Part shown: piece by piece, positions 8,219-30,838 of the stretch
Numbering within the stretch: the first letter of the stretch is position 1
How the letters are laid out: the number at the start of each line of letters is the position of its first letter
Assembly: GCA_903919455.1 (NCBI GenBank)
Contig: CAIXIJ010000119.1
Location: 1-32,951 of the forward strand
Direction of reading: 5' to 3'
Length of the DNA stretch: 32,951 nt
Source: an uncultured Acidimicrobiaceae bacterium
Lineage (GTDB): Bacteria; Actinomycetota; Acidimicrobiia; Acidimicrobiales; Ilumatobacteraceae
Program-made: the position numbers and the translations under genes
Notes under the pieces: generated by a model
The model's database searches: none
Told to the model about the DNA's origin: nothing
Seen by the model: only the letters and a program-made list of their open reading frames with translations

Positions 8219-8377
8219 GAGAAAGGGAGGCTATCCGACGCACGCCCTGTCCGTACCTTCGCTCGCCACGACCTCAAGTTCACGCTGCGTGGCGCCGATG
8301 AAGCATTACAGACGTTGGAGCGAAGGACGCTCGGCGGCGTCGCCCCAATCGGGGTGCGGGTTCATCTGAGGAACGGG

Positions 8378-10474
8378 ATGGGTATGAGGAGGAACGAGCA
8401 TGTCGGCGCAAGGGCGCTGGCGGTGACGGGTCTGCTGGGTGGCGTCGCCTACCTGGTGTGGCGTCTCGCGTCATCCATGCATGGTTCGCCGTTTTGGTTG
8501 GCCACACCGTTCTATGTAGTGGAGACCATCGGGTTCCTGGCCACGGCCCTATTGGTGTGGGCGTTGTGGCCTGCGCCGGTCATGGGTCGCGAAAATTCGG
8601 TAGATCACTACGCCGCTAGGGCGGATGCCGTGGTGCGGGTGCACGGCCACTCCTTGCAGGACCTCCGCGCCACGATGTTGGCGCTGCAGCACGTGGCCGG
8701 CGTGGACGACGTTGTGATCGTGGACATCGACGGTCGACCTGAGGTGGCCAGAATGGCCGTCGAGTTCCAGGCCATCTACGCAGCCACCGACCCGAGCGAC
8801 CGCAATGGCATGAGCGTGATGGCATCGGCCGTGCGCGCACGGCAGTTCCTGCTGCTCGATGCGGGTGACGTACCCACCTCCGACATCGTCACTCGCCTGG
8901 CCCCAGACCTGGCCGACCCGACCGTGGCAGTGGTGCAGGGCCTCGGTGTGTCGGTGGCCGACGACTCCCCCGAGCACGGACCTGACCGTCGGCACGAGTT
9001 GATCTTCGAACGCAGTTCACTGAACCCGGCCCTCGGTCGGCGTGGTGCGGCCATCTGGCTCGGCTCCGGTGCGCTGATTCGCGTGGATGCCCTTCGTGGG
9101 TTGCCGATCGATCTGCGCAGCAACGTGGAAGCCTGCTGGTCGGCCACTTCGGCGCTGCATACCGCAGGTTGGAAGGTGACTGCGCCGGCGGGTGCACCCG
9201 TGCTTGCCTTCCGCGACCTTCGCGACGCTCGTACCGTGTACGACGACCGCGTGTATCGCGTTCGTGCCGCTCGCGAGATGGTGTTCGGCCCGCATGGAGT
9301 GATGCGCCCCGGGGTGAGCGGCCTCACCCATCGTCTTGCCGCGCTGGCGTGGTGTGTACGTCCGCTGTCGAGCATTCGTCGCGTGGCGTTCATCGCGCTG
9401 CTCTGCGCCGCCCTCCTCGCCGGCGAGGCACCGTTCAGTGGCAGCGTGACCGCTATGGCCGTGCTGTGGCTGCCCTACTTCGCGTACACCTCGTTGGGGG
9501 TGTGCCTGCTGAGCGGATGGACGTTGCGCCCAGGCGACCGTGCTCGCTGGTCGCTGCACAACATCGGTGCCACGCTGCGCAGTTCGCTGGACCCGGCGAC
9601 CGCTCCGGAGCGGCCGCCGATCGTGAACCTGCCCGCCAGTCAGTACGGCGCCAGCCTGGTCGCTGCGGTCGTCGTTCTCAGCGTGGTGCTCTTGCTACGT
9701 GGCCTCAGCGATCGCTTCACCCACTCCATGGGCGTGCTGCCGCAATCGGCGCTGCTGGCCATGGTGGCCGTCAGCCTGTGGCTGCTCGGCCTGTCGTTGG
9801 ACCTGCTCCGCGTATTGGGTCGCAAGGCGCATGCTCGCCGAGCTACCCGTGTGGGCGCTGCGCTGTCGGCTGGTTTTGGCGACCGTGCCGTGTCCATCCT
9901 CGACCTCACATCGCTCGGCGCTGGTGCCGTGTGCCTCGACCGCTTCGAGATCGGTGAGCGGGCACTCCTGCAGACATCCATCCCTACGCGAACGGGTGTG
10001 ACCAGCGTGCAACTGACGGCGGTGGTGCGCAATGCGACCCGACTGCCATACGGGGAATGGCGTCTCGGATTGGAGTTCGAATCCATCGACGATGCCAGTG
10101 CGAACGCGTTCGCTGAGTACTGCTTGATCGAGCCGGTGTGGGAGCAACTGGGCGTCATGCCCGACACGTCGATTACCGAATCGCGTCCACTGATGAGCCG
10201 CGGTGGCGTAGAGCCGACATCGAGAGTCGGCCGCATGGTGCTGCGGGCTGTTGCGCTGCTGGCCCTCGTGGGTGCTGTGGCCAGCTCTCTCCCGGCGCAG
10301 GCCGAAGCCGCTGCGGTGAGCCCACGCTGGACCGACACGCTGATCCGAGCGAGCGAGACGTCGGACCAGCGCGTCCGGGTCACGCTGTCGCTGGCGGTAC
10401 TGGGGATTTCCGGCATCATCGCCGTCAGCATGTTGGTGGGGTTGCACCGGCCGCGTCGCGCTGCGGACGTGTGA
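8378..10474 (+). CDS. Cellulose-synthase-like membrane protein with degenerate GT2 domain and C-terminal PilZ domain
   Basis: The protein has 698 residues. Two N-terminal helices (about 12-31, 41-64) precede a GT2-like domain (about 80-300), then four helices (about 334-350, 356-380, 425-441, 457-480), a PilZ domain (about 484-585) and two more hydrophobic segments (about 619-640, 667-689). DAGD (161-164) stands at the DxD position, but the TED motif and QxxRW motif expected of cellulose synthases are not seen (SNVEACW and YRVRAAREM stand in their places). The PilZ motifs are kept: RxxxR at Arg487-Arg491 and DLTSLG (509-514), with Thr for Ser. It probably binds c-di-GMP but may not polymerise sugar. 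GAGGA at 8368-8372 sits 5 nt before ATG 8378; GTG 8354 is an alternative. The frame is open far upstream, antisense to the FKBP gene. Confidence 0.85.
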   Translation: MGMRRNEHVGARALAVTGLLGGVAYLVWRLASSMHGSPFWLATPFYVVETIGFLATALLVWALWPAPVMGRENSVDHYAARADAVVRVHGHSLQDLRATMLALQHVAGVDDVVIVDIDGRPEVARMAVEFQAIYAATDPSDRNGMSVMASAVRARQFLLLDAGDVPTSDIVTRLAPDLADPTVAVVQGLGVSVADDSPEHGPDRRHELIFERSSLNPALGRRGAAIWLGSGALIRVDALRGLPIDLRSNVEACWSATSALHTAGWKVTAPAGAPVLAFRDLRDARTVYDDRVYRVRAAREMVFGPHGVMRPGVSGLTHRLAALAWCVRPLSSIRRVAFIALLCAALLAGEAPFSGSVTAMAVLWLPYFAYTSLGVCLLSGWTLRPGDRARWSLHNIGATLRSSLDPATAPERPPIVNLPASQYGASLVAAVVVLSVVLLLRGLSDRFTHSMGVLPQSALLAMVAVSLWLLGLSLDLLRVLGRKAHARRATRVGAALSAGFGDRAVSILDLTSLGAGAVCLDRFEIGERALLQTSIPTRTGVTSVQLTAVVRNATRLPYGEWRLGLEFESIDDASANAFAEYCLIEPVWEQLGVMPDTSITESRPLMSRGGVEPTSRVGRMVLRAVALLALVGAVASSLPAQAEAAAVSPRWTDTLIRASETSDQRVRVTLSLAVLGISGIIAVSMLVGLHRPRRAADV

Positions 10475-11106: not shown

Positions 11107-11715
11107 TCAGAGCGTGTTGCGGAAGGCGGATGGTTCGACCAGTTGCACTTGCTCGCCGATGGCCACCCGGCCATCCGAGTGCACGATCAGCCACGTGCCG
11201 CTGAGGTTCGGAAAGCGCACCTCGAGATGGCCGAGTACGTGGCACAGCGTTCGGATGAGTCCGGCGTGGGTGACCACCAACACCTCACCACCCGGCGACG
11301 CCATGGCGATGTCGTTGCATGCCTGCACGGCTCGGGCCACCACGGCCTCGGGTTCCTCGGCGCCTTCGGGCCGGCGTTGCTCGGTCAGGTACCCGGGCCA
11401 ACCCGCCTCGATCTCGGCCACGGTGAGCCCCTGCCACGGGCCGAACGCTGCTTCCATCAGACCGGGGTGCAGTTGCACCGGACCCACCCCAATGTGTTCC
11501 GCGATCACGGCCGCCGTGTGCGCGGCGCGCTGCAGGGTGCTGGCCCACACGGCATCGAAGGTGCCCAACTGCTCGGCCGCGGCAACAGCCTGCAGCAGGC
11601 CGGTCTCGGTGAGCGGCGGATCCTCCTGGCCCTGCCAGCGGCCGGACGCGTTCCACTCGCTCTCCCCATGGCGCAGCGCGAGGATGCGCGTGACGGGCTG
11701 GTGGCTGGTGGTCAT
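11107..11715 (-). CDS. Histidine phosphatase (phosphoglycerate-mutase-like)
   Basis: The 202-residue protein carries the phosphohistidine motif LRHGESEWN at residues 14-22, the second arginine region WASTLQRAAHTA, an acidic region EAAFGPWQGLT, and VVTHAGLIR with the second catalytic histidine. It dephosphorylates small phosphate esters; the substrate is not readable. The first reading of the frame goes up to 11946, over the MoaD-like gene. ATG 11715 is chosen because TACCCT (11728-11723) lies 7 nt upstream; ATG 11739 is possible. In mycobacteria a phosphoglycerate-mutase-like gene is also found near mshA, but here the order differs. It is divergent from the MoaD-like gene, 51 bp apart. Confidence 0.88.
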   Translation of the reverse strand: MTTSHQPVTRILALRHGESEWNASGRWQGQEDPPLTETGLLQAVAAAEQLGTFDAVWASTLQRAAHTAAVIAEHIGVGPVQLHPGLMEAAFGPWQGLTVAEIEAGWPGYLTEQRRPEGAEEPEAVVARAVQACNDIAMASPGGEVLVVTHAGLIRTLCHVLGHLEVRFPNLSGTWLIVHSDGRVAIGEQVQLVEPSAFRNTL

Positions 11716-11766
11716 CGCCCGGAGGGTAGCCGTCGACATTGCGAGGTGCCCACTACGCTGCTCCGC
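11716..11766. promoter_or_regulatory. Divergent leaderless promoters for histidine phosphatase and MoaD-like gene
   Basis: Minus strand: TACCCT (11728-11723), 7 nt, ATG 11715. Plus strand: TACGCT (11754-11759), 7 nt, ATG 11767. Both -10 elements fit in 51 bp, so the two units compete for or share polymerase and any regulator. Confidence 0.5.
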
Positions 11767-12009
11767 ATGGCAACGCTCCGTCTGTTTGCTGCTGCCCGCG
11801 AGGCAGCGGGTACCGGCAGTACGGAGACCCATGCGGGCACCGTGGGCGAGGTGTTGGCCGAAGCGGAGTCCCGGTTCGGGCCCGACTTTCGCGCCGTGCT
11901 GCAAAGCTGTCGGGTGTGGTTGAACGGCGAACCCGCCGAGATGCATATGGCCGTGACGGGAAATGACGAGGTGGCGGTCCTGCCACCCGTGAGTGGAGGT
12001 TTCGAATGA
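11767..12009 (+). CDS. MoaD/ThiS-like ubiquitin-fold sulfur carrier with a GG-Phe-Glu tail
   Basis: It encodes 80 residues from ATG 11767; the longer upstream frame is antisense to the histidine phosphatase. The N-terminus ATLRLFAAAREAAGT is typical of MoaD, as are VWLNGEPAE and the final LPPVSGG. Sulfur carriers of this fold normally end exactly at Gly-Gly, which is adenylated and turned into a thiocarboxylate. Here two residues (Phe-Glu) follow. Activation would need them to be removed, as is known for QbsE-type carriers trimmed by a JAMM protease. The extra codons create an ATGA overlap with the next gene. It probably serves molybdopterin or cysteine/thiamine sulfur transfer; no partner enzyme is in the window. 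Confidence 0.75.
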   Translation: MATLRLFAAAREAAGTGSTETHAGTVGEVLAEAESRFGPDFRAVLQSCRVWLNGEPAEMHMAVTGNDEVAVLPPVSGGFE

Positions 12010-12515
12010 GCACGAACGAGTTCGACCCGCGTCAGTTGCCGCTCGACGAGCTGCGCTCCTTGCGTGCTGGCCTGCAGCACGACGACGACGCCGTCAGCTA
12101 TGTGCGTCGCCTCGCCCAAGCCCGGCTCGACCTCGCACGCGCCGAACTGCGCAACCGCGCGGCCACCGAGGATGTGAGCAGCATCACGGGTGAGTTGCCG
12201 TCGATTCTCAGTTCGCAACTCACCGGCGGCCCGGCTCGTCCGCCGCGCCCAGCCGACGATTTCAGCGAGCATCCACTTGCGTTGCAGTTGGAAGACCTGT
12301 GCTCCGATGCCGGAAGCGCCGACCTCGGTTCGATGTCGCTCGATCAACTCGCTAGCTACATCGCCGCATTGCACGAGTTCGAGCAGGCGCGCTCCGTCGA
12401 GCGCAAGGAACTGTTCTCGCGCATCGATGCGCTCAGCGCCGAGCTCGTGCGCCGTTACCGCGATGGCGAAGCCAACGTCGACGGCCTGCTCGGCGACGAC
12501 GACACCGCCGACTGA
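12006..12515 (+). CDS. RsiG-like c-di-GMP-responsive anti-sigma factor candidate
   Basis: This 169-residue acidic, mostly helical protein begins in the stop codon of the MoaD-like gene (ATGA). Streptomyces RsiG binds c-di-GMP through two helices carrying E(X)3S(X)2R(X)3Q(X)3D and then holds the sigma factor WhiG. Helix 1 here reads Ser31, Arg34, Gln38, Asp42 with Asp27 in the Glu place (SYVRRLAQARLD). Helix 2 reads Glu126, Ser130, Arg133, Asp141, with Phe137 in the Gln place. The following LDLARAEL also fits the family. A disordered Pro/Ala-rich linker (72-88) separates them. This is motif recognition by eye; no WhiG/FliA gene is in the window to confirm a partner. If right, it would tie c-di-GMP to transcription. 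Confidence 0.65.
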   Translation: MSTNEFDPRQLPLDELRSLRAGLQHDDDAVSYVRRLAQARLDLARAELRNRAATEDVSSITGELPSILSSQLTGGPARPPRPADDFSEHPLALQLEDLCSDAGSADLGSMSLDQLASYIAALHEFEQARSVERKELFSRIDALSAELVRRYRDGEANVDGLLGDDDTAD

Positions 12516-12517
12516 AC

Positions 12518-13732
12518 CTAGGAGTGGTGTGTCGCGTCGGGGTGTGACCGTCTGCGCAGTACCGCGAACGCCAACACGCCGCTGAGCACCGATGCCAGCA
12601 GGATGGCGATCTTGGCGTCGGCGAGGTGTTCTTCGTTCACCACACCATCGTCCACGAACGCCAACTCGGCGATGAACAGCGCCACGGTGAACCCGATACC
12701 GGCGGCGTTGCCAGCGCCCAGCAATTGGCGCCCGGTGGTGCCCTCGGGGAGATCAGCGGAGCCAGATCTGGTGGCGAGCCGGGAAGCCAGCAGCACACCG
12801 ATCGGTTTGCCGAGCACAAGGCCGGCTGCGATGCCCCAGAAGATGACCGAGCCAAAGGCCACTCGCATGCTGTGGCCGCTGACCTCGATACCGGCGTTAG
12901 CGAGCGCGAAGAGCGGCACGATCACGTAACTGCTCCACGGGTGCAAGCGGTGTTCGAGTTGCGGAATGCGCTCCACGGGAGCGAGCAACCCCATCACCAC
13001 GCCGGCGAGCGTGGGGTGGATGCCCGCTTCGTGCATGGCGAACCACATGATCACGCCGATGATGGCGTAGACCAGTACATAGGGCACGCCAGCCGTGCGC
13101 AAGAGCACGGTGACGCCGATGGCGGCGACGGCTCCGGCCAGCCAACCGAACGAGACGCCCGCTGAGTAGAACACCGCGATCACCACGATGGCGCCGATGT
13201 CGTCGACCACGGCGAGGCCGAGCAGGAACGCGCGCAACGATGCCGGGGCGCCAGTTCCGACCAGGGCCATCACACCCACGGCCAGGGCGATGTCGGTGGC
13301 CATCGGGACACCCCACCCCTTGGCGGCGCTGCCACCAGCGATGGCCAGGTAGAGCAACGCCGGCACGATCATGCCGCCGATCGCAGCTGCCACCGGCAGG
13401 GCGGCCGCCCGCCGTCCGGCGAGGTGCCCGCTGGTGAGTTCCCGCTTGATCTCAAGGCCAACGACCAGAAAGAAGATGGTCATGAAGCCGTCGCTCACCC
13501 AGTGCTGGAGGTCGAGGTGCAGCGCATGGCTGCCCGACCCAACGTTGACGACGTGATGCCAGAAGTTGCGGTACGACGACCGCCACGGAGAGTTCGCCCA
13601 GACCAGCGCCACCACCGAAGCACCGATGAGGAGCGCCCCACCGGCAACTTCGGTGTGGAGGAACTCGACGAGAGGCGACAGCAGGCGCCGCACCGTGGAC
13701 TGGCGCTGTGCTCGGTCGGTCTCCTGGGCCAT
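12518..13732 (-). CDS. nhaA: NhaA-type Na+/H+ antiporter
   Basis: The 404-residue protein has about 12 transmembrane segments and clear NhaA signatures: FFLVVGLEIKRELTSG, PMATDIALAVG, the paired aspartates in LAVVDDIGAIVVIAVFY, and GNAAGIGFTVALFIAELAF near the end. It exports Na+ in exchange for protons, serving pH and sodium homeostasis. The frame extends to 13858, but that part is antisense to mshA; ATG 13732 (MAQETDRAQR) is the family-like start. It converges on the RsiG-like gene with 2 bp between the stop codons and is divergent from mshA. Together with the antiporter at 2315-3595, the window has two unrelated cation/proton exchangers. Confidence 0.95.
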   Translation of the reverse strand: MAQETDRAQRQSTVRRLLSPLVEFLHTEVAGGALLIGASVVALVWANSPWRSSYRNFWHHVVNVGSGSHALHLDLQHWVSDGFMTIFFLVVGLEIKRELTSGHLAGRRAAALPVAAAIGGMIVPALLYLAIAGGSAAKGWGVPMATDIALAVGVMALVGTGAPASLRAFLLGLAVVDDIGAIVVIAVFYSAGVSFGWLAGAVAAIGVTVLLRTAGVPYVLVYAIIGVIMWFAMHEAGIHPTLAGVVMGLLAPVERIPQLEHRLHPWSSYVIVPLFALANAGIEVSGHSMRVAFGSVIFWGIAAGLVLGKPIGVLLASRLATRSGSADLPEGTTGRQLLGAGNAAGIGFTVALFIAELAFVDDGVVNEEHLADAKIAILLASVLSGVLAFAVLRRRSHPDATHHS

Positions 13733-13818
13733 GCGGGTCGATTGTGGCACGCGGGTCCGCGCGGACTCCGCTCCTCCTCTGGGGAATGTTGACTGCACAG
13801 GTAGTGTTCTCACCCGTC

Positions 13819-15033
13819 GTGCAACGGGTTGCTGTGCTTTCGTTCCACACCTCGCCACTGGCTCAACCGGGCTCGGGCGACAGTGGCGGCATGAACGTCT
13901 ATGTGCGCGAGTTGTCGTCGGCGCTGGCGCAGGCCGGTGTGGAATGCACCACGTACACGCGGCGCACGTCGGCCGATCAGCCCGAGGTGGTGCAGGTCGA
14001 GCCCGGCCACCGTGTGGTGCACCTCACTGCCGGCGACTTCGATCTACCCAAAGAGGCCCTTCCCAGCGTGCTCGATGAGTTCGGCGATGCCGTGATGGAG
14101 CACATGCGCCGGCAGGCCCCTGTCGACGTGCTGCACGCCAACTACTTCCTCAGTGGCCTGGTGGCGCATCGCCTCAAGCACGAACTCGATCTTCCGTTCG
14201 TCAGCACGTTTCACACCCTGGCCAAGGTGAAGGCGGAGGGTGGCGACACCGAGAGCCAGTGGCGCCACGACGCAGAGGCCGACATCATTCGCTGTGCCGA
14301 TGCCATCTGCGTGAGCTGCACCGAAGAGGAAAACCAGTTCCGTCGGCTCTACGGCAACCCCCAGGCTCGCATCGAGATCGTGGCCCCAGGGGTGGAGCAC
14401 GCCTTCTTCGCCCCCGGTGAACGATCTGGGGCGCGTCGTGCGCTCGGCCTGCCGCTCGATGCCCCGGTGCTGCTGTTCGTGGGTCGCATCCAACCGCTCA
14501 AGGCACCCGATGTTGCGGTGCGTGCCCTCGCCGAACTCGGCCGACCCGATGCCATCCTGCTGGTCGTCGGTGGCGCCAGTGGATCCGAGGGAAGCACTGA
14601 AGAGCAACTGCTGCGCGACCTCGTGCAGGAACTCGGTCTCGCTGCGCAGGTGCGGTTCGTTCCGCCGCAGCCCCATCACATCCTGTCCACCTATTACCGT
14701 GCCGCCGATGCGGTGGTGGTGCCGAGCCGCAGTGAGAGCTTCGGCCTGGTGGCGCTGGAGGCTTCAGCCTGTGGCGTGCCGGTGGTGGCCAGTGGCGTGG
14801 GCGGTCTGCTGACGCTGGTGGATCACGGCGAGACCGGCTATCTGGTGCCCGACCGCGACCCAGCGGTCTTCGCCCACTACCTCCGCGAAATCATCGAACA
14901 CCCAAGCCACGCGGCTGCATTGGGTCGTCGGGGCGCCGACCGCGCGCGCCGGTACACGTGGAGCTTCGCTGCTGCCCGACTGCGTCGTTTGTACACCGAC
15001 CTCGGTGTGCGCGAGCGGGTGGCCTGCGGATGA
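13819..15033 (+). CDS. mshA: GT4 glycosyltransferase, MshA-like (mycothiol step 1)
   Basis: The 404-residue protein begins with RVAVLSFHTSPLAQPGSGDS, followed by GGMNVYVRELS, the MshA hallmark. It continues with a GT-B fold: VSTFHTLAKVK, APGVEHAFFAPG, LLFVGRIQPLKAPDVAVRAL and the donor-site motif SRSESFGLVALEASACGVPV. MshA joins UDP-GlcNAc to 1L-myo-inositol 1-phosphate, the first step to mycothiol, the actinobacterial thiol buffer. GTG 13819 gives the usual family N-terminus; ATG 13786 is an alternative adding 11 residues, and TAGTGT at 13802-13807 would then be internal. The YbjN gene overlaps its stop (ATGA), the same order as in mycobacteria, which supports the assignment. Confidence 0.87.
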   Translation: MQRVAVLSFHTSPLAQPGSGDSGGMNVYVRELSSALAQAGVECTTYTRRTSADQPEVVQVEPGHRVVHLTAGDFDLPKEALPSVLDEFGDAVMEHMRRQAPVDVLHANYFLSGLVAHRLKHELDLPFVSTFHTLAKVKAEGGDTESQWRHDAEADIIRCADAICVSCTEEENQFRRLYGNPQARIEIVAPGVEHAFFAPGERSGARRALGLPLDAPVLLFVGRIQPLKAPDVAVRALAELGRPDAILLVVGGASGSEGSTEEQLLRDLVQELGLAAQVRFVPPQPHHILSTYYRAADAVVVPSRSESFGLVALEASACGVPVVASGVGGLLTLVDHGETGYLVPDRDPAVFAHYLREIIEHPSHAAALGRRGADRARRYTWSFAAARLRRLYTDLGVRERVACG

Positions 15034-15497
15034 CCGACTACCACTTGCCGCCGTCGCTGCAGGAGTTCGAGACATCCATCACCGCGTGGCTGCACGGGTT
15101 CGCCAAGGGCAGCAACCTCTTCGAGGCCATCGACCGCGGAGAACCTGGCGATAGCAACGAGCCGCGCTGGTATGTACGCCTGCGCGGTGAAGAGAAGGAA
15201 CACATCACGGTGTGGCTCACACTGGGCCAACGCACCCTTCGCTATGAGGCGTACGTGTTGCCAGCCCCGCAGGAGAACGCTGCGGCCGTATACGAGATGG
15301 CGTTGCGGCGCAACGATCGTCTGGTGGGCGCTCACTTCGCCATCGGAGTGGAGGATGCGCTCTTCCTGCGCGGCGAACTGCCACTGACGGCGCTGAACGA
15401 AGCCGAACTGGATCGCGTGCTCGGGTCGCTGTATCAGTACGTGGAGTCCACGTTCCCAGCGCTGATTCGCCTCGCCTTCGCCAGCAAGTTCACCTGA
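15030..15497 (+). CDS. YbjN-domain protein downstream of mshA
   Basis: The 155-residue protein overlaps the mshA stop codon by four bases (ATGA), so it is translationally coupled. An alpha/beta pattern typical of YbjN/type III secretion chaperone-like folds is visible. It includes WYVRLRGEEKEHITVWLTLG and TLRYEAYVLPAPQENAAAVYE, then LRRNDRLVGAHFAIG and the final helix with LDRVLGSLYQYVEST. Members have no known enzymatic activity and are thought to bind other proteins. Mycobacteria also keep a YbjN gene after mshA, so a link with mycothiol synthesis or its regulation is plausible, but unproven. A perfect 14-bp hairpin follows. Confidence 0.82.
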   Translation: MTDYHLPPSLQEFETSITAWLHGFAKGSNLFEAIDRGEPGDSNEPRWYVRLRGEEKEHITVWLTLGQRTLRYEAYVLPAPQENAAAVYEMALRRNDRLVGAHFAIGVEDALFLRGELPLTALNEAELDRVLGSLYQYVESTFPALIRLAFASKFT

Positions 15498-15602: not shown

Positions 15603-15614
15603 CGTGCGCCGACG

Positions 15615-15627
15615 TAGCCTCTGGCGC
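15615..15627 (+). promoter_or_regulatory. -10 hexamer TAGCCT for proC, leaderless
   Basis: TAGCCT (15615-15620), 7-nt spacer, ATG 15628. It decides against an earlier in-frame start at 15604. Confidence 0.5.
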
Positions 15628-16419
15628 ATGACTTCGTATCGGCTGGCAGTGGTGGGTGGCGGCAACATGGGCGCCGCCCTCGTGGGTGGTCTGTTGAAGG
15701 GCGACTGGAATGCCGCCGAACTGGTGATCGTGGAGGTCCTGCCGGCGCGCGCTGCGCAGTTGGCCGAGATGTTCCCCGGGGTGGCCGTGGTGGCCGAGAC
15801 ACCGTCGTGCGAAGCGGCCCTGATTGCCGTGAAGCCCTACGACGTGGCCACGGCCTGCTCGGCCGCGGCTCGGGCGGGCGCTCGCCGACTGCTGAGCATT
15901 GCTGCCGGCATCTCCGTGGCGGCCCTGCAGGATGCTGCCGGCCCCGACGTGGTGGTGGTGCGTTCGATGCCGAACACCCCCGCACTGGTGGGCGAAGGTG
16001 CCGCAGCCATGTGCGGCGGAACCACCGCCGAGGAAGACGACCTCGCCTGGGCAGAGGGCATCCTGGGTTCCGTGGGCATCGTGGTGCGCGTGCCCGAGAG
16101 TCAACTTGATGCGGTCACCGGGCTGGCCGGCAGCGGCCCTGCCTACCTGTTCCTGGTGGCGGAGGCGCTCACCGAAGCGGGTGTGCTGGCCGGTTTGAGC
16201 AGGCAGAACGCCGAGCAACTGGTGCAGCAACTGTTCGTCGGTTCAGCGAAGTTGCTGGCAGAGCAGGGCAACCCGGCTCAGCTGCGGGCCAACGTCACAT
16301 CACCTGGCGGCACCACTGCAGCGGGGCTTCGTGCCCTCGAAGAGCATGGTGTGCGGTCGGCATTCCTGGAAGCAGTGATGGCCGCCACGGCCCGCGGTAA
16401 CGAACTCGGCAAGCGCTGA
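15628..16419 (+). CDS. proC: Pyrroline-5-carboxylate reductase
   Basis: The 263-residue protein has the N-terminal dinucleotide site VVGGGNMGAALVGGLL, the loop VRSMPNTPALVGEGAAAM, and the dimerisation/active-site helices VTGLAGSGPAYLFLVAEALTEAG and VTSPGGTTAAGLRALEE. The length is normal for the family. It reduces 1-pyrroline-5-carboxylate to proline with NAD(P)H in the cytoplasm. It appears to be a single-gene unit, preceded by the hairpin at 15560-15602 and with its own leaderless promoter. The other proline genes are not in the window. Confidence 0.95.
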   Translation: MTSYRLAVVGGGNMGAALVGGLLKGDWNAAELVIVEVLPARAAQLAEMFPGVAVVAETPSCEAALIAVKPYDVATACSAAARAGARRLLSIAAGISVAALQDAAGPDVVVVRSMPNTPALVGEGAAAMCGGTTAEEDDLAWAEGILGSVGIVVRVPESQLDAVTGLAGSGPAYLFLVAEALTEAGVLAGLSRQNAEQLVQQLFVGSAKLLAEQGNPAQLRANVTSPGGTTAAGLRALEEHGVRSAFLEAVMAATARGNELGKR

Positions 16420-24222: not shown

Positions 24223-26628
24223 ATGATGGGCATGCGGCGCTCGCAGCGCTGGCTCCTTGTAGGAGCAACAGCATCGGTGATGGCTGTGGTGGGCGTAGCC
24301 CAGGCCACGGCGGCTCATCGCGCGCCGGCTGCCGACCCCGTGGCGCCCGTCGCAGCCGTGCCCACGACCATGGTGTCGCAGTCACCTTCGGTGTCTGCTG
24401 ATGGCCGGTTTGTGGTGTACGTGGGTCGGCCCACCGAAGCAGGCGACACGCGTGCTGCCACCGTGTTTCTGCAGGATCGGGTCGATGGTTCGGTCACCGA
24501 ACTCACCGCTGCGGTGGATGGCCTGCAGCCCGGCGAATCTGTGTGGCCGGTGATCAGCGCCGATGGCTGCGTGGTGGCGGTCACCACCGAACTCGGTCTC
24601 GACCTGTTCCGCGACGACGACACCGGCGCCCGCTGGGACGTGTATGCGCTTCGCCTTCCTGCGTGCGGTGGTGCGCTCGGCGATTGGGAACTGGTCAGCA
24701 CCGGCACCGGGCAGGGTTTCGAGGCCAGCGCATCCGACGACGTGAGCCCTCTGTACCCGGCTGCAATCTCAGGCGAGGGTGCGCTGGTGGCCTACACGCA
24801 CCGCTTCAACGCCACCTCCAACGACATCACAGCGATCACGCTGGTGGATCTCACGGTGCCGCTCGGCGAGCTTGGCCGCATCCAGCCGGTGGCTGGGCAG
24901 CCGGCCGAGGGACCCATCACCAACTTCCGCTATCACGGCCTGCGCGAGCCGGTCCTCAGCGACGACGGCAACCTGCTGGCCTTCACCTCCGATGCCGTGG
25001 CCACCTCACCGCTTGGTGAGTGGGCGACGGGCCCGCAGGAAGGCGAGTTCGCCACCTCGCAGATCTATGTCTGGGATCGCGCCGACATCGATCCGAACAC
25101 CAACGTGCGGCTCATCTCCATGGCTCCGGGCGGCGAGCCGTCCGGCCAGGCCAGTAGCGCCGCGCTCTCCGGCGATGGTCGCTATGTGGCGTTCGTGTCC
25201 ACGGCCTCGAACCTTGTGCCCGGCGCCACCTTGCCCACCTGCAACCCCGACTGCCTGCCGCAGGTGTATCTCTTCGACCGCACCGATGGCGCGTTGGTGC
25301 TGGGCAGCCGCGAGCCTGGCGACCCCACGGCAGCGCCGGTGGCCGCCAATCTCGGTGCCACGCAGCCATCGATGAACCGCAGCGGCTCCGAACTGTTCTA
25401 CGTGACCCGATCCACCAACCTGTTCGCCACGCGCAGCGGTGAACTCGGTGGTGCGCTCGACGGCGACATCGTGGTGTCGGTGCCGGCCATTGGCACCGTG
25501 CAGCGTCTGAACACGCTGGCCGACGGTGTCACTCCGGGTCCGGCTGTCAATGCACACCCGAAGGCCTCGGCCAACGGGCGCGTGGTGGTGTTCGACACCC
25601 TCGCCGGCGCGGCCTTCGGTGGAAAGGCGGTCGAGGGTCGTCAGATCGCCATCATCGACAGCAAGCCGGTGGTGAACCTCGCCAACCTCGATCTCGGCAC
25701 GGTGGCCGTTGGCTACCCCGGCCCGGAGTGGTTCCTGGTGCTCTCCAATCAGGGCCCGTCGTCGTTCATCCCGGCGCTCGTCGACGTGGACAACCCCGAC
25801 TTCATCGTCAGTGGCGGCACGTGCGTGGATCAGAACACCACCCCGGTGCCCCCGGGTGGTGCGTGCACCATCAACCTCATGCTGTCACCGTCGAAAGAGG
25901 GCACCATCGAGGGTCTCCTCACGGTGCATGAGTTCGGGTTCGGAGCCACCGAACTGACGGCGCAACTCACTGGCGCTGGTGGCAACCCGGCATTGGCACC
26001 GGTGCCAGCGGGCGCAGAGGCCCATCCGATGGTGGTGGGCACTCGCGACGAACCGATGTCGTTCAACATCAGCAACGTGGCCTTCAATCCGGTCGGCATT
26101 CGCTCGGTGAAGGTGCAGGGCTCGAACCCCGACGACTTCGTGATCGCCACCGACAACTGCACGGGTCACAGCGTGAATGCAGCCGACATCTGCACGATCG
26201 ATGTCGTGTTCGCCCCCACGGGCGCCGGCCGCCGCACTGCCAGCGTGGTGGTGACCACCACCGAAGGTGCCTACACCACGATGATCGTCAGCGGCGACGC
26301 CCGCTGGGACCCCAAGCTCGCCCTCGGCACCACGAACATCATCGCTCCATCACGAGTGCAGGTGGTGGGCGCCGGTTTCGCCCCCAACGTGCCGGTCACC
26401 ATTGCGTGGGCCGACGGACTGGGTCGTCCGGTCACAGTGACCAGCGACGGCTATGGCGGTGTGCTCGCCGAACTGGTGGTGCGCCCCAACGATCGCCCGG
26501 GTGCTCGCACCATCGTGGCGCAGACCTCCGATGGAGAGATGGCATCTGCTGATGCCACCGTCGTGGTGCCCACGCAGCGCACCGGGCCAGGCTCCGCCAA
26601 CTGGCCGCGCCCCCGCCCGCGCCCCTGA
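24223..26628 (+). CDS. Secreted seven-repeat beta-propeller protein with Ig-like C-terminal domains
   Basis: This 801-residue protein has a signal peptide (Arg-rich start, hydrophobic about 11-28, cleavage near ATAA). Seven TolB/PD40-like repeats follow, each with a ...S.DG..VA(Y/F) core: SPSVSADGRFVVYV, WPVISADG, YPAISGEG, EPVLSDDG, SAALSGDG, QPSMNRSG and HPKASANG. They make a likely seven-bladed propeller (about 48-480). Two choice-of-anchor D/HYDIN-type Ig domains follow (about 485-690; DLGTVAVGYPG, VPPGGACTINL, then EPMSFNISNVAF), then an IPT-like domain and a Pro/Arg tail. It probably acts at the cell surface as a binding protein. ATG 24223 is followed by other Met codons at 24226 and 24232, so the exact start is uncertain. 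Confidence 0.85.
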   Translation: MMGMRRSQRWLLVGATASVMAVVGVAQATAAHRAPAADPVAPVAAVPTTMVSQSPSVSADGRFVVYVGRPTEAGDTRAATVFLQDRVDGSVTELTAAVDGLQPGESVWPVISADGCVVAVTTELGLDLFRDDDTGARWDVYALRLPACGGALGDWELVSTGTGQGFEASASDDVSPLYPAAISGEGALVAYTHRFNATSNDITAITLVDLTVPLGELGRIQPVAGQPAEGPITNFRYHGLREPVLSDDGNLLAFTSDAVATSPLGEWATGPQEGEFATSQIYVWDRADIDPNTNVRLISMAPGGEPSGQASSAALSGDGRYVAFVSTASNLVPGATLPTCNPDCLPQVYLFDRTDGALVLGSREPGDPTAAPVAANLGATQPSMNRSGSELFYVTRSTNLFATRSGELGGALDGDIVVSVPAIGTVQRLNTLADGVTPGPAVNAHPKASANGRVVVFDTLAGAAFGGKAVEGRQIAIIDSKPVVNLANLDLGTVAVGYPGPEWFLVLSNQGPSSFIPALVDVDNPDFIVSGGTCVDQNTTPVPPGGACTINLMLSPSKEGTIEGLLTVHEFGFGATELTAQLTGAGGNPALAPVPAGAEAHPMVVGTRDEPMSFNISNVAFNPVGIRSVKVQGSNPDDFVIATDNCTGHSVNAADICTIDVVFAPTGAGRRTASVVVTTTEGAYTTMIVSGDARWDPKLALGTTNIIAPSRVQVVGAGFAPNVPVTIAWADGLGRPVTVTSDGYGGVLAELVVRPNDRPGARTIVAQTSDGEMASADATVVVPTQRTGPGSANWPRPRPRP

Positions 26629-27034: not shown

Positions 27035-28246
27035 TTAGGCGTCGATGAGGACGCCGCTGATCAACACGTTGGGGTTGCAGGCATCGCCCGTGAGGTCGCC
27101 CACACCGGTGCACGACACGGTGACCACCAGCTGTTCACCCGACTGGAACTCCAGCGGCGTCACCAGCGGCAGGCCGGTGTCGCTGAAGGTGGTGGTGAGG
27201 TTGTAGGTGACGAGTGCGTTCGCGTTCTTGGAGATCACCAACGTGCCCTGATCGCCCTGCGGGTTCTGCACGAGGATGTCGGTGACCTGCAGGGTCTTGC
27301 CAGCCGGCACCTGGTACTGGTTGGCGTTGGTCTGGCCGGCCTTCGCTGACACCGGGAGGGCCACGTTGGTGATGGTGCCCTGTGGCGGATTGTTGCCGTC
27401 GGACACGGTGGTGACGGTGGTGCTGTCGGAGCCGGGCAATGTGGATGCCACCACGGTGCTGGGCGTGGCGCCCAACTCGTTCACTGCATCTCGTGCAGCG
27501 TCGCGGATGGCGGGCTTCACCAACCCCACCCAGGCGACGCCGAGCAGCGCTGCTACGCCGGCGACCGCAGCCAAACGACCGAACAGATTCTCGGGCACCA
27601 CGGGCGCCTGCACGAACGTGGCGCCCGCCTCGGCGGTGGGACTGCCTGCCTGGTCGGCCTCGATGCGGAAGGGGATGGTTCGCGACGACCGCTGCCACTG
27701 CACGCGGGTGGCGCGCACCTTCATTCGCACCAAGGCGCTCGAGCCAGGTTCCACCCCGGCCGAGGGCGGCTCGAAGTCGGCCTCGAGCCGACCGGTGGGG
27801 TCGAGCAGGCGCATGCGGCAGGACGCCAGGGTGTTGCCCCGGTTCTCGAGCATCAGGTCGTAGGTGACCGAGCGGCGACCGCGGAGGGCGGGGGTGAGCA
27901 CGTTCAGACGACGGTCGAAGCTCTCACCGATGATGAGCGTGGTTTCGGCCGACGTGTCGGCATCAGGGTCTCGATTCGAGACCACTCGCACCGACAGCGA
28001 CGTGGGACCAGCGATGGTGGTGGGCAGCATTGGCGGCGCCACCTGCACTTCCACCACCTGCTGCGTGCCACCGAACAAGGTGACATTGGCCGGTTGCAAC
28101 GTGGTCCAGCCCGACGGCATGCCGATGGGGGTGAGGGTGAACGAGTCGGTCGAATCGGCCAGATTCACGATGGTGAGTTGCAGCACCGCAGTGGTGCCGG
28201 GCGCGACATCCACGTCGCCGGAGGAGAACCAAGCTTGCGCTGCCAT
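27035..28246 (-). CDS. Ig-like-domain membrane protein (COG1470-like), no signal peptide
   Basis: The 403-residue protein has two N-terminal Ig-like/alpha-galactosidase-NEW3-type beta domains (about 8-105 and 110-212). The first has VDVAPGTTAVLQLTIVNLADSTDSFTL, the second LLDPTGRLEADFEPPSAGVEPGSS. A single transmembrane helix follows (about 224-243), then a Thr/Ser-rich linker (256-290) and a C-terminal beta domain (about 295-403). No signal peptide precedes the first Ig domain, so by the helix position the N-terminal domains would be inside and the C-terminal part outside, which is unusual for Ig domains. TAGGGT (28261-28256) lies 9 nt before ATG 28246. It converges on the propeller gene and follows the GGDEF gene by 24 bp. 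Confidence 0.78.
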   Translation of the reverse strand: MAAQAWFSSGDVDVAPGTTAVLQLTIVNLADSTDSFTLTPIGMPSGWTTLQPANVTLFGGTQQVVEVQVAPPMLPTTIAGPTSLSVRVVSNRDPDADTSAETTLIIGESFDRRLNVLTPALRGRRSVTYDLMLENRGNTLASCRMRLLDPTGRLEADFEPPSAGVEPGSSALVRMKVRATRVQWQRSSRTIPFRIEADQAGSPTAEAGATFVQAPVVPENLFGRLAAVAGVAALLGVAWVGLVKPAIRDAARDAVNELGATPSTVVASTLPGSDSTTVTTVSDGNNPPQGTITNVALPVSAKAGQTNANQYQVPAGKTLQVTDILVQNPQGDQGTLVISKNANALVTYNLTTTFSDTGLPLVTPLEFQSGEQLVVTVSCTGVGDLTGDACNPNVLISGVLIDA

Positions 28247-28270: not shown

Positions 28271-29794
28271 CTAGCGAAGCACTGTTCGGTCGCTGCCGTT
28301 CGTCTTGGCCTCCAGCAATGCGGAACGAGCCGAGGCCAGCAATTCTTCGGTGGTGGCGGCATCGGATACGACGGTGAGGCCGACGCTCGCAGTGAGTCGG
28401 ATGTCGGCGGGGATCCCGTGCCAGGTGCGTGCTGCGATGAGGTGACGAACGCGATCGAAGACGATTCGTGCATCATGCGGCGACGTGTCGCGCAGCAGCA
28501 TTCCGAACTCGTCACCACCAAGCCGCACGACGGTGTCGCCTCGTCGCAGCACTCGCTCGAGCATGGCGGCCACTTCCTGCAGCACGCCGTCGCCGAGCAG
28601 ATAACCGTGGTCGTCGTTGATGCGCTTGAAACCGTCGAGGTCGATGACGCCGATGCACACCGGTGAATGGTGCAGGACCGCCTCGGCTAGGACGTGGGTG
28701 AGGTGTTGCCGATTCGGCAACCCGGTCAGTGCGTCGCTCTCGCTGGTGACTGCTACCTCCAGGCTGTCGGCGCCGAGGCGAACGTGTTCCCATCGGATGA
28801 GGCAGCTGTCGTTGAGACGTTTCTGCGCAGCCCGCAGCTGTTGCTCCAGCGCTGCTCGCGCCTCGACATGCAGCCCGAGCGTCCAGAGCACCTCTACCTC
28901 GAGTTCGTGCACGGGGCCCATGTACTGCTGCAACTCAAGACCCTCCGCCGCGTCGAGGGCGGCGTCGATGAGTGCGCGCACTGAGGGGTCGCGGCTCAGT
29001 CCCCACGTGGCGATCGCTTCGGCTGCGATTGCCAACGCCAATTCGCCGCGCATGCCGTGCTCGGTGGCGATCTCCTTGGCGGTTCGAGCGTCGTCGATGG
29101 CGTCGTGGAAGCGACCGATCTCGGCGAACATCATCGCCCGGTGGGCCAACGCTTCGCCGACGGCCATGGTCTCGTTGGCACCCTGGGGGTCGAGCGCGGC
29201 GGTGGCGGCGTACAGGCCGTCGTGCAGCAGGCGATGCTGCTCCAGCGGGTCGAGTTCGCGAAGGGCAGCGTCGTGATAGGTGGCCGACATGCTGGCGTAG
29301 GCGAACTGCCGATCCGCGTCGTTGTTCGCCAGTCGCAATGCCCGGTCGAACAGCTCGAGCGCTGGCTCGATGAAGCCACAGCGCGCGTAGGTGACCGCCA
29401 TGTTGTGCAGCACCTGATAGTGAGCGGGTTCGAGGGTGAGACGCTGAAGGATGCACACCGCTTCTGAGAGCGCCTCGGTGGCCTCCGGCCAGCGCTCGGC
29501 TCGGGTGTGGTCGTCCGCCAGGAGGCCGAGGGCATCAACGAGTTCCGCCAGATGGCCGGCATTCCGTGCCTCTTCTGCCACCACCCGTGCGAGCGCGGTG
29601 GCGTCGTCGAACTGTTCCGCCGCCACCATGCAGCACGCTTGGCGAACTTGCAGGTTCAGACGATGCTGCAGATCGGTTGGCTCGGCGGATGCCAGGGCGA
29701 ACAGGGCGGCCGCCTGGCGGTAGTCGCCGGCCTGTCGAGCAGCGATCGCCCTCTGCTCCGCGCGAACCGACGGGTCGGGCCTTGCCGCGCTCAC
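28271..29794 (-). CDS. TPR-like sensor diguanylate cyclase (GGDEF)
   Basis: The 507-residue soluble protein has N-terminal helical repeats of the TPR kind (about 10-325; AGDYRQAAALFALASAEP, GFIEPALELFDRALRLAN, GRFHDAIDDARTAKEIA), a short coiled linker (about 316-345) and a GGDEF domain (about 345-505). DALTGLPNR (354-362), IDLDGFKRINDDHGY (384-398) and the active site GGDEF (426-430) are intact. RRGD (417-420), five residues upstream, is the RxxD inhibitory site, so the enzyme should be active and feedback-limited. It makes c-di-GMP from two GTP in response to an unknown partner bound by the repeats. GTG 29794 is chosen because AAGGA lies 8 nt upstream; the frame extends to 30760 antisense to hemB. 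It is divergent from hemB. Confidence 0.9.
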   Translation of the reverse strand: MSAARPDPSVRAEQRAIAARQAGDYRQAAALFALASAEPTDLQHRLNLQVRQACCMVAAEQFDDATALARVVAEEARNAGHLAELVDALGLLADDHTRAERWPEATEALSEAVCILQRLTLEPAHYQVLHNMAVTYARCGFIEPALELFDRALRLANNDADRQFAYASMSATYHDAALRELDPLEQHRLLHDGLYAATAALDPQGANETMAVGEALAHRAMMFAEIGRFHDAIDDARTAKEIATEHGMRGELALAIAAEAIATWGLSRDPSVRALIDAALDAAEGLELQQYMGPVHELEVEVLWTLGLHVEARAALEQQLRAAQKRLNDSCLIRWEHVRLGADSLEVAVTSESDALTGLPNRQHLTHVLAEAVLHHSPVCIGVIDLDGFKRINDDHGYLLGDGVLQEVAAMLERVLRRGDTVVRLGGDEFGMLLRDTSPHDARIVFDRVRHLIAARTWHGIPADIRLTASVGLTVVSDAATTEELLASARSALLEAKTNGSDRTVLR

Positions 29795-29833
29795 GGGGCG
29801 ATTCCTTGGCCGATGCGAATACGATGCGTCACC

Positions 29834-30838
29834 GTGACCGGCAACTTTCCCGTCTCGCGGCCACGGCGGCTGCGCAGCTCCGCTTCGCTGCGCGACCTCG
29901 TTGCAGAGACGCACCTCGACGTCCGCCATCTGGTGGCACCACTGTTCGTCCGTGAAGGCATCGACACTCCACAGCCCATTGCGTCGCTGCCGGGGGTGAT
30001 GCAGCACACGCCGCAGAGCCTTCGCGACGAGGTGCGGCACCTGGCCGACCTCGGCGTGCGCGCAGTGATGTTGTTCGGTGTGCCACTCATCAAGGATTCC
30101 ATCGGCTCGCAAGCCTTCGACCCTGAGGGAATCGTGCAGGCGTCGTTGCGCGATCTCGCGAGCGACGTGGGTGACCGGATGGTGGTGATGGCCGATCTGT
30201 GTGTGGATGAGTACACCGACCACGGCCACTGCGGCGTCCTCGACGGCCCTGCCGGCGACCCGCACACCTCCGTCGACAACGATGCCACGCTGGAGATCTA
30301 CGGCCGCATCGCGGTGGCGCAGGCCGACGCTGGCGCCCAGGTGGTAGCGCCGAGCGGAATGATGGACGGCCAAGTGGGTGTCATTCGCGCAGCGCTCGAT
30401 GCTGCCGGCCACACGAACGTCAGCATCCTGGCCTACTCGGCGAAGTACGCGAGCGGTCTGTACGGCCCGTTCCGCGACGCCGTCGATTGCGCCATCGTGG
30501 GTGGCGGCGACCGCAAGGCCTATCAGCAGGACTGGCGCAACGGGGCACGAGAGGCACTCCTCGAGGTGCACGCCGACCTGGCCCAGGGTGCCGACATGGT
30601 GATGGTGAAGCCGGCCCTCGCCTACCTCGACATCATCGCTGCCGTGCGAGCCCAGGTGAACGTGCCCGTTGCGGCGTATCACGTCAGTGGCGAGTACGCC
30701 ATGCTGAAGGCCGCCGCCGCGAACGGTTGGATCGACCACGACGTGGTGGCCACCGAACACCTCACTGCCATCAAGCGCGCCGGCGCTGATGTGATCCTCA
30801 CCTATCTCACCCGCTGGTTTGCGGAGGCCAACTCATGA
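29834..30838 (+). CDS. hemB: Delta-aminolevulinic acid dehydratase (porphobilinogen synthase)
   Basis: The 334-residue enzyme condenses two 5-aminolevulinates to porphobilinogen. The two Schiff-base lysines are Lys204 (YSAKYASGLYGPFR) and Lys259 (MVMVKPALAYLD). The metal loop reads DLCVDEYTDHGHCG: Cys123 and Cys133 are present but the middle cysteine of the Zn type is Asp125, so the metal could differ from that of the three-Cys enzymes. GTG 29834 is preceded by TACGAT (29820-29825) 8 nt upstream; ATG 29813 is an alternative lying before this hexamer. Start codons of hemB and the GGDEF gene are 39 bp apart and divergent. hemL overlaps the 3' end by four bases. Confidence 0.95.
   Translation: MTGNFPVSRPRRLRSSASLRDLVAETHLDVRHLVAPLFVREGIDTPQPIASLPGVMQHTPQSLRDEVRHLADLGVRAVMLFGVPLIKDSIGSQAFDPEGIVQASLRDLASDVGDRMVVMADLCVDEYTDHGHCGVLDGPAGDPHTSVDNDATLEIYGRIAVAQADAGAQVVAPSGMMDGQVGVIRAALDAAGHTNVSILAYSAKYASGLYGPFRDAVDCAIVGGGDRKAYQQDWRNGAREALLEVHADLAQGADMVMVKPALAYLDIIAAVRAQVNVPVAAYHVSGEYAMLKAAAANGWIDHDVVATEHLTAIKRAGADVILTYLTRWFAEANS

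Follow-up and report, generated by a model that had tools for sequence, protein, structure and literature searches.

The c-di-GMP-armed anti-sigma factor RsiG of Streptomyces venezuelae, which acts on the sigma factor WhiG, is represented by the structures 6pfj and 6pfv (in 6pfj, the RsiG molecule carries the PDB name "AmfC protein") and by the Pfam family PF22802. In this organism, RmdB, a protein with both GGDEF and EAL domains, displaces RsiG from WhiG (PMC13232838). A second described system is that of Rubrobacter radiotolerans (7lq2, 7lq3, and 7lq4), in which RsiG is a single-motif homodimer linked to type IV pili; in its complex, the motif Gln stacks on guanine, the guanines are read by Asp and Arg, and Ser and Glu bond the ribose (PMC8325347). 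According to the same report, twin-motif RsiG derived from single-motif RsiG via internal duplication, and motif 1 is named as the sole exception to motif conservation, its Gln often being replaced by His, which the authors judge fit for stacking (PMC8325347). Twin-motif RsiG has furthermore already been reported in three of four Acidimicrobiales species (PMC8325347).

The window examined here, that is, the whole stretch of 32,951 nucleotides that was analysed, contains an open reading frame of 169 amino acids (12006-12515, plus strand, ATG start) that, judging from its sequence, is a genuine and ordinary twin-motif RsiG. The gene, its motifs, and its neighbours are the following:

11107..11946, minus strand: histidine phosphatase (PF00300)
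11767..12009, plus strand: MoaD/ThiS-type sulfur carrier, ending in PPVSGGFE (Pfam ThiS, 45.6 bits)
12006..12515, plus strand: rsiG
12084..12131, plus strand: c-di-GMP motif 1 in helix 1 (residues 27-42: D27, S31, R34, Q38, D42)
12381..12428, plus strand: c-di-GMP motif 2 in the last helix (residues 126-141: E126, S130, R133, F137, D141)
12518..13858, minus strand: NhaA antiporter between rsiG and mshA (TIGR00773, over cut-off)
13708..15033, plus strand: mshA-like D-inositol-3-phosphate glycosyltransferase (TIGR03449, 405 bits, under the cut-off of 462.5); an open frame whose true start may lie further in
15030..15497, plus strand: YbjN-domain protein (PF10722, 36.4 bits, cut-off 22)
15604..16419, plus strand: what we take, from its sequence, to be a ProC-like reductase, a neighbour in relatives as well

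The RsiG identity proposed in a preliminary description of this DNA was borne out by the profile search, in which PF22802 matched in two stretches with 91.3 bits (cut-off 27). The best sequence match in the PDB (phmmer) was S. venezuelae RsiG 6pfj (E 1.6e-13, residues 11-162), and the remaining matches up to E 10 were the single-motif RsiG entries 7lq2, 7lq3, and 7lq4 (E 6e-4 to 9e-4, residues 7-52). No NCBIfam model reached its threshold with this frame, which says no more than that. An AlphaFold model of RsiG alone, built from seven sequences, reached a mean pLDDT of 78.5 and placed long helices at residues 13-52 and 112-152, predicting an antiparallel coiled coil like that of 6pfj and 6pfv. 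When this model was used as a Foldseek query, all four matches at E <= 0.001 were RsiG chains of 6pfv and 6pfj. VIA-align gave Z scores of 13.2 and 12.9 for RsiG as compared to 8.7 for the next entry, a Z of about 13 being close to the tool's warning level for helical models, with the RsiG rows clearly separate and unrelated helical proteins ranked below them; in this structural alignment, the window's RsiG is 36% identical to 6pfj.

The protein thus resembles S. venezuelae RsiG over nearly its full length, in its twin motifs, its predicted antiparallel coiled coil, and its linker and C-terminal region, but departs from it by an Asp for Glu in motif 1, a Phe for Gln in motif 2, and a different linker sequence. 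With R. radiotolerans RsiG it shares the c-di-GMP motif, the kind of partner, and an alignable first helix. Membership in the single-motif (homodimeric) class was ruled out by the presence of two motif-bearing helices. The twin-motif RsiGs reported from Acidimicrobiales have the same architecture, a comparison made by their description in PMC8325347, and they belong to the same lineage judging by the named relatives of the window's protein, the closest of which is 98% identical and comes from a metagenome assembly labelled "Acidimicrobiaceae" (two others are labelled "Ilumatobacteraceae").

The preliminary description had called the setting of the gene unexpected, citing its coupling to a sulfur-carrier-like gene. 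The overlap itself is real, as the stop codon TGA of the carrier gene (12007-12009) lies over the rsiG start codon at 12006 in an ATGA arrangement, and the neighbour indeed matches Pfam ThiS; among NCBIfam models it is closest to those of MoaD, with scores below their cut-offs. The setting, however, is the ordinary, recurrent chromosomal address of the gene, because moaD-, mshA-, ybjN-, and proC-like genes commonly recur near rsiG in the order. Among 20 order loci, which were chosen mostly from the best matches and not randomly, 19 carry the mshA-like gene downstream of rsiG and 16 the moaD-like gene upstream of it, in both cases on the strand of rsiG; a proC-like gene is found on the same strand in 16 (on the opposite strand in one more), a ybjN-like gene in 15, and the histidine phosphatase in 13. 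NhaA interrupts the rsiG-mshA interval in one of the 20, a genome of the same genus. In the closest relatives, the moaD-like gene and rsiG overlap or almost touch; elsewhere the gap ranges from 0.07 to more than 3 kb (0.9-2.1 kb in eight loci). Order and strand of rsiG and mshA-ybjN are kept even in two relatives from a large-genome genus (g52; 9.2 and 9.5 Mb), with a distance between them of about 31 kb in G128 and about 20 kb in G023.

The carrier of the window extends two residues (FE) past its terminal GG, and its relatives end either at GG or one to five residues beyond; those that extend would therefore need trimming before activation. Further along the window, 24223-26628 (plus strand) gives above-cut-off matches to PD40 repeats and to a Hydin-type (ASH) domain, and 27035-28246 (minus strand) gives weak Ig-like matches (FixG_C, Hydin-type), all under cut-off.

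The recurrent gene order also bears on the objection that the frame encodes a coiled coil whose motifs resemble those of RsiG by chance. The motifs do sit on long helices rich in charge, a setting in which spaced charged residues arise easily, but the match to a curated profile far above its cut-off, the matches to RsiG in the PDB, the presence of matches to the window's RsiG in 37 of 41 genomes of the family (the window genome included), and the repeated neighbourhood led us to reject a chance motif, the probability of which we regard as negligible.

Both motifs fit E/D-x3-S-x2-R-x3-[Q/F]-x3-D, which confirms the twin RsiG pattern noted earlier, including the Asp for Glu in the first and the Phe for Gln in the second motif. 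The S-x2-R-x7-D core is present in both helices (S31, R34, D42 and S130, R133, D141). At the remaining positions of the published E(X)3S(X)2R(X)3[Q/H](X)3D motif, two of four are letter-identical (Q38 and E126), and D27 and F137 differ but also occur in relatives that match this protein or the family. These deviations were followed through 90 relatives, comprising 29 of the 36 other RsiG-bearing genomes of the family and, from outside the family, 61 of the 72 order genomes with RsiG, namely those whose loci were fetched. A second RsiG copy in G462 was left out of the motif counts, as were six named loci, at least one of which had already been counted as a genome; an earlier mixed count, containing a repeated locus and loci from the phylum, served only for the motif positions and for the motif-2 residues outside the order.

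In motif 1, S31, R34, and D42 are present in 89 of the 90 order relatives (the one other row, from outside the family, being a gap), and the stacking position is Gln in 83, His in five, and Gly in one. Asp replaces Glu at position 27 in 18 of the 29 family members; the 61 other order members lack this change and have Glu in 57 and Ala in three cases. In motif 2, E126, S130, and R133 are invariant (90/90) and D141 is kept in 86, with Asn in three and Ala in one. The stacking position 137 is occupied by Phe in 45, His in 43, and Tyr in two relatives, and by Gln in none. Because of this distribution, D27 and F137 are lineage markers. Among the loci read outside the order, L016-L026 (eleven loci, all from the genus with large genomes) have Gln at this position, as do L029, L039, and L139, and L033 and L035 have Leu, so that a ring at motif 2 is not strictly needed elsewhere.

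These counts also speak against the earlier suggestion that one site is weakened, and against the reading of a twin-motif RsiG that is losing its second site and would bind one c-di-GMP, or bind it weakly. Such a loss could be read from the Phe for Gln in motif 2 and the Asp for Glu in motif 1, and from Asn or Ala in place of D141 in four and Ala in place of D27 in three of the 90 order members. Yet the changed residue is the one that stacks on the guanine base, for which the authors of PMC8325347 deem His suitable, and in all 90 relatives position 137 carries one of His, Phe, and Tyr next to an unchanged E126, S130, and R133, which is a constrained and not a decaying pattern. We accordingly judge a degenerate site unlikely. 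The idea that the protein might show how the switch evolved with one weakened site finds no support either, as the proposed ancestor is a single-motif homodimer and not a degenerate twin (PMC8325347). Under the favoured reading of an ordinary twin-motif RsiG, the clade-wide ring (His/Phe/Tyr) at motif 2 of the RsiG of this order is mildly new: it does not appear to be described in PMC8325347, and a literature search on RsiG in this lineage returned that paper and an unrelated one.

If the protein is an RsiG, a WhiG should be encoded in the same genome, and the absence of a sigma gene beside rsiG had been pointed out before. Indeed, none was found among the six neighbouring proteins scanned (10.5-15.5 kb), and all 25 Sigma70_r4 matches of the genome are on contigs other than that of the window. 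This separation is not odd, as the genes are unlinked: they lie on different contigs in the window genome, and in three relatives in which both matches share a contig, the distance is about 0.5 Mb (G404), 1.2 Mb (G471), and 2.1 Mb (G031). The search of the window genome (97% completeness, 3.55 Mb in 150 contigs) for a WhiG/FliA-type sigma factor was successful, with a single gene over the FliA/WhiG cut-off on contig C41 (TIGR02479, 253.9 bits, cut-off 189.6; next score 106.7). Its product has S. venezuelae WhiG (6pfv, E 1.2e-76) as the best PDB match and carries the K-x3-G-R pattern (Lys35, Gly39, and Arg40), the K, G, and R of WhiG being reported c-di-GMP contacts (PMC8325347). When this gene was aligned with the 30 best matches of an order search, K, G, and R were found in 25 of the 31 WhiG genes, with Ser for Gly in five and Thr for Gly in one. 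The frames around whiG on C41 appear from their sequences to be comM-, dprA-, and xerC-like on the 5' side and an M23-like frame and rpsB on the 3' side, presumably the same neighbourhood as in Streptomyces.

The window's RsiG has matches in 76 of 118 order genomes, and a WhiG-class sigma factor is present in 69 of these 76 as compared to three of the 42 RsiG-negative genomes (those without a match to the window's RsiG at E <= 0.001). The WhiG class comprises matches of at least 235 bits and two matches cut by contig ends (G415 and G456), without which the counts are 67/76 and 3/42; Fisher's test gives a p of about 2e-20, which has not been corrected for relatedness and serves as a guide only. 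Nineteen order genomes have only lower-scoring FliA/WhiG matches, and four of them carry RsiG. One of the three RsiG-negative genomes with WhiG (G080) has a weak PF22802 match (E 7e-5).

That the RsiG homologue has a partner other than WhiG (another sigma factor or protein), its motif being retained for c-di-GMP sensing alone, could explain why seven of the 76 RsiG-bearing genomes lack a WhiG-class match (four with lower-scoring FliA/WhiG matches only, three with none at threshold) and would fit the unlinked position of rsiG and whiG. These seven genomes, however, are drafts in many contigs, so that gaps may account for the missing genes. The strong co-occurrence of RsiG with WhiG, the presence in the window genome of a WhiG with the c-di-GMP contact residues, and the near full-length likeness to the RsiG of a solved complex also speak against another partner, which makes it very unlikely in our view.

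In the phylum sample, PF22802 matches 248 of 396 genomes, and the 2021 survey, with another method and sample, listed 135 RsiG homologues; the 134 genomes that carry them all belong to the 673 Actinobacteria it covered (PMC8325347). Given this and the Acidimicrobiales twin-motif RsiGs of that survey, the notion that the present gene extends the RsiG switch is not supported. Several PF22802 matches per genome were observed in G111 (six) and G062 (five), both of the same phylum, as compared to one to three in the others listed; possibly, these two genomes carry RsiG paralogues.

The genome also has 14 GGDEF matches, one of which lies in the window at 28289-28738. The protein encoded there (28271-30760, minus strand), on the same contig as rsiG, combines TPR matches with a GGDEF domain (116 bits) and is likely a diguanylate cyclase. 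A frame 1.5 kb upstream of rsiG (8360-10471, plus strand) gives a weak glycosyltransferase match (21.5 bits, cut-off 27) and a C-terminal PilZ match (18.3 bits, cut-off 22.5); this putative glycosyltransferase/PilZ protein might be a further target of c-di-GMP.

These observations are best, and very probably correctly, explained by an RsiG-type inhibition of WhiG that is gated by c-di-GMP. By analogy with the complexes solved for S. venezuelae and R. radiotolerans, from which we infer ligand binding, residue roles, complex formation, and the direction of the switch, RsiG armed with c-di-GMP would grip the genome's own WhiG, which would present Lys35, Gly39, and Arg40 to the ligand; the bound sigma factor would be kept away from RNA polymerase and released once c-di-GMP drops. 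Homology, motifs, the predicted RsiG fold, a WhiG with its contact residues, and GGDEF genes were established directly for this genome. Against the mechanism stand the two deviations from the published motif (D27 for Glu, F137 for Gln), the seven of 76 RsiG-bearing genomes without a WhiG-class gene (with draft gaps as a possible cause), the three of 42 RsiG-negative genomes with WhiG, and promoter scans that gave no clear WhiG targets. In the latter, the flagellar/WhiG consensus taken from PMC8325347 had no exact match in the genome at spacers of 14-16. With up to two mismatches and a spacer of 15, 36 matches were found in the window genome vs 21 for the backwards control, a mild excess, and some true targets may be among the 36; with up to one mismatch, the 41 family genomes gave 80 matches vs 141 for the control and thus no excess.

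What WhiG would govern may differ from the R. radiotolerans case. PilM was found in one of the 41 family genomes and is absent from the window genome; since it is lacking there and in 39 of the other 40, one cannot readily transfer the role in pili from Rubrobacter to these bacteria. The twin-motif RsiG of this order may have become asymmetric by rule, with a stacking residue that is mostly Gln in motif 1 and always a ring in motif 2. We consider it conceivable, albeit rather doubtful, that such an asymmetry alters the affinity for the two c-di-GMP molecules or the order in which they are loaded, and thereby retunes the switch over a regulon other than PilM-type pili.

Overall, a false alarm is removed and a modest detail is added to the RsiG family, which is common in the phylum: the clade-wide ring substitution at the second c-di-GMP motif is something that a binding experiment could explain.
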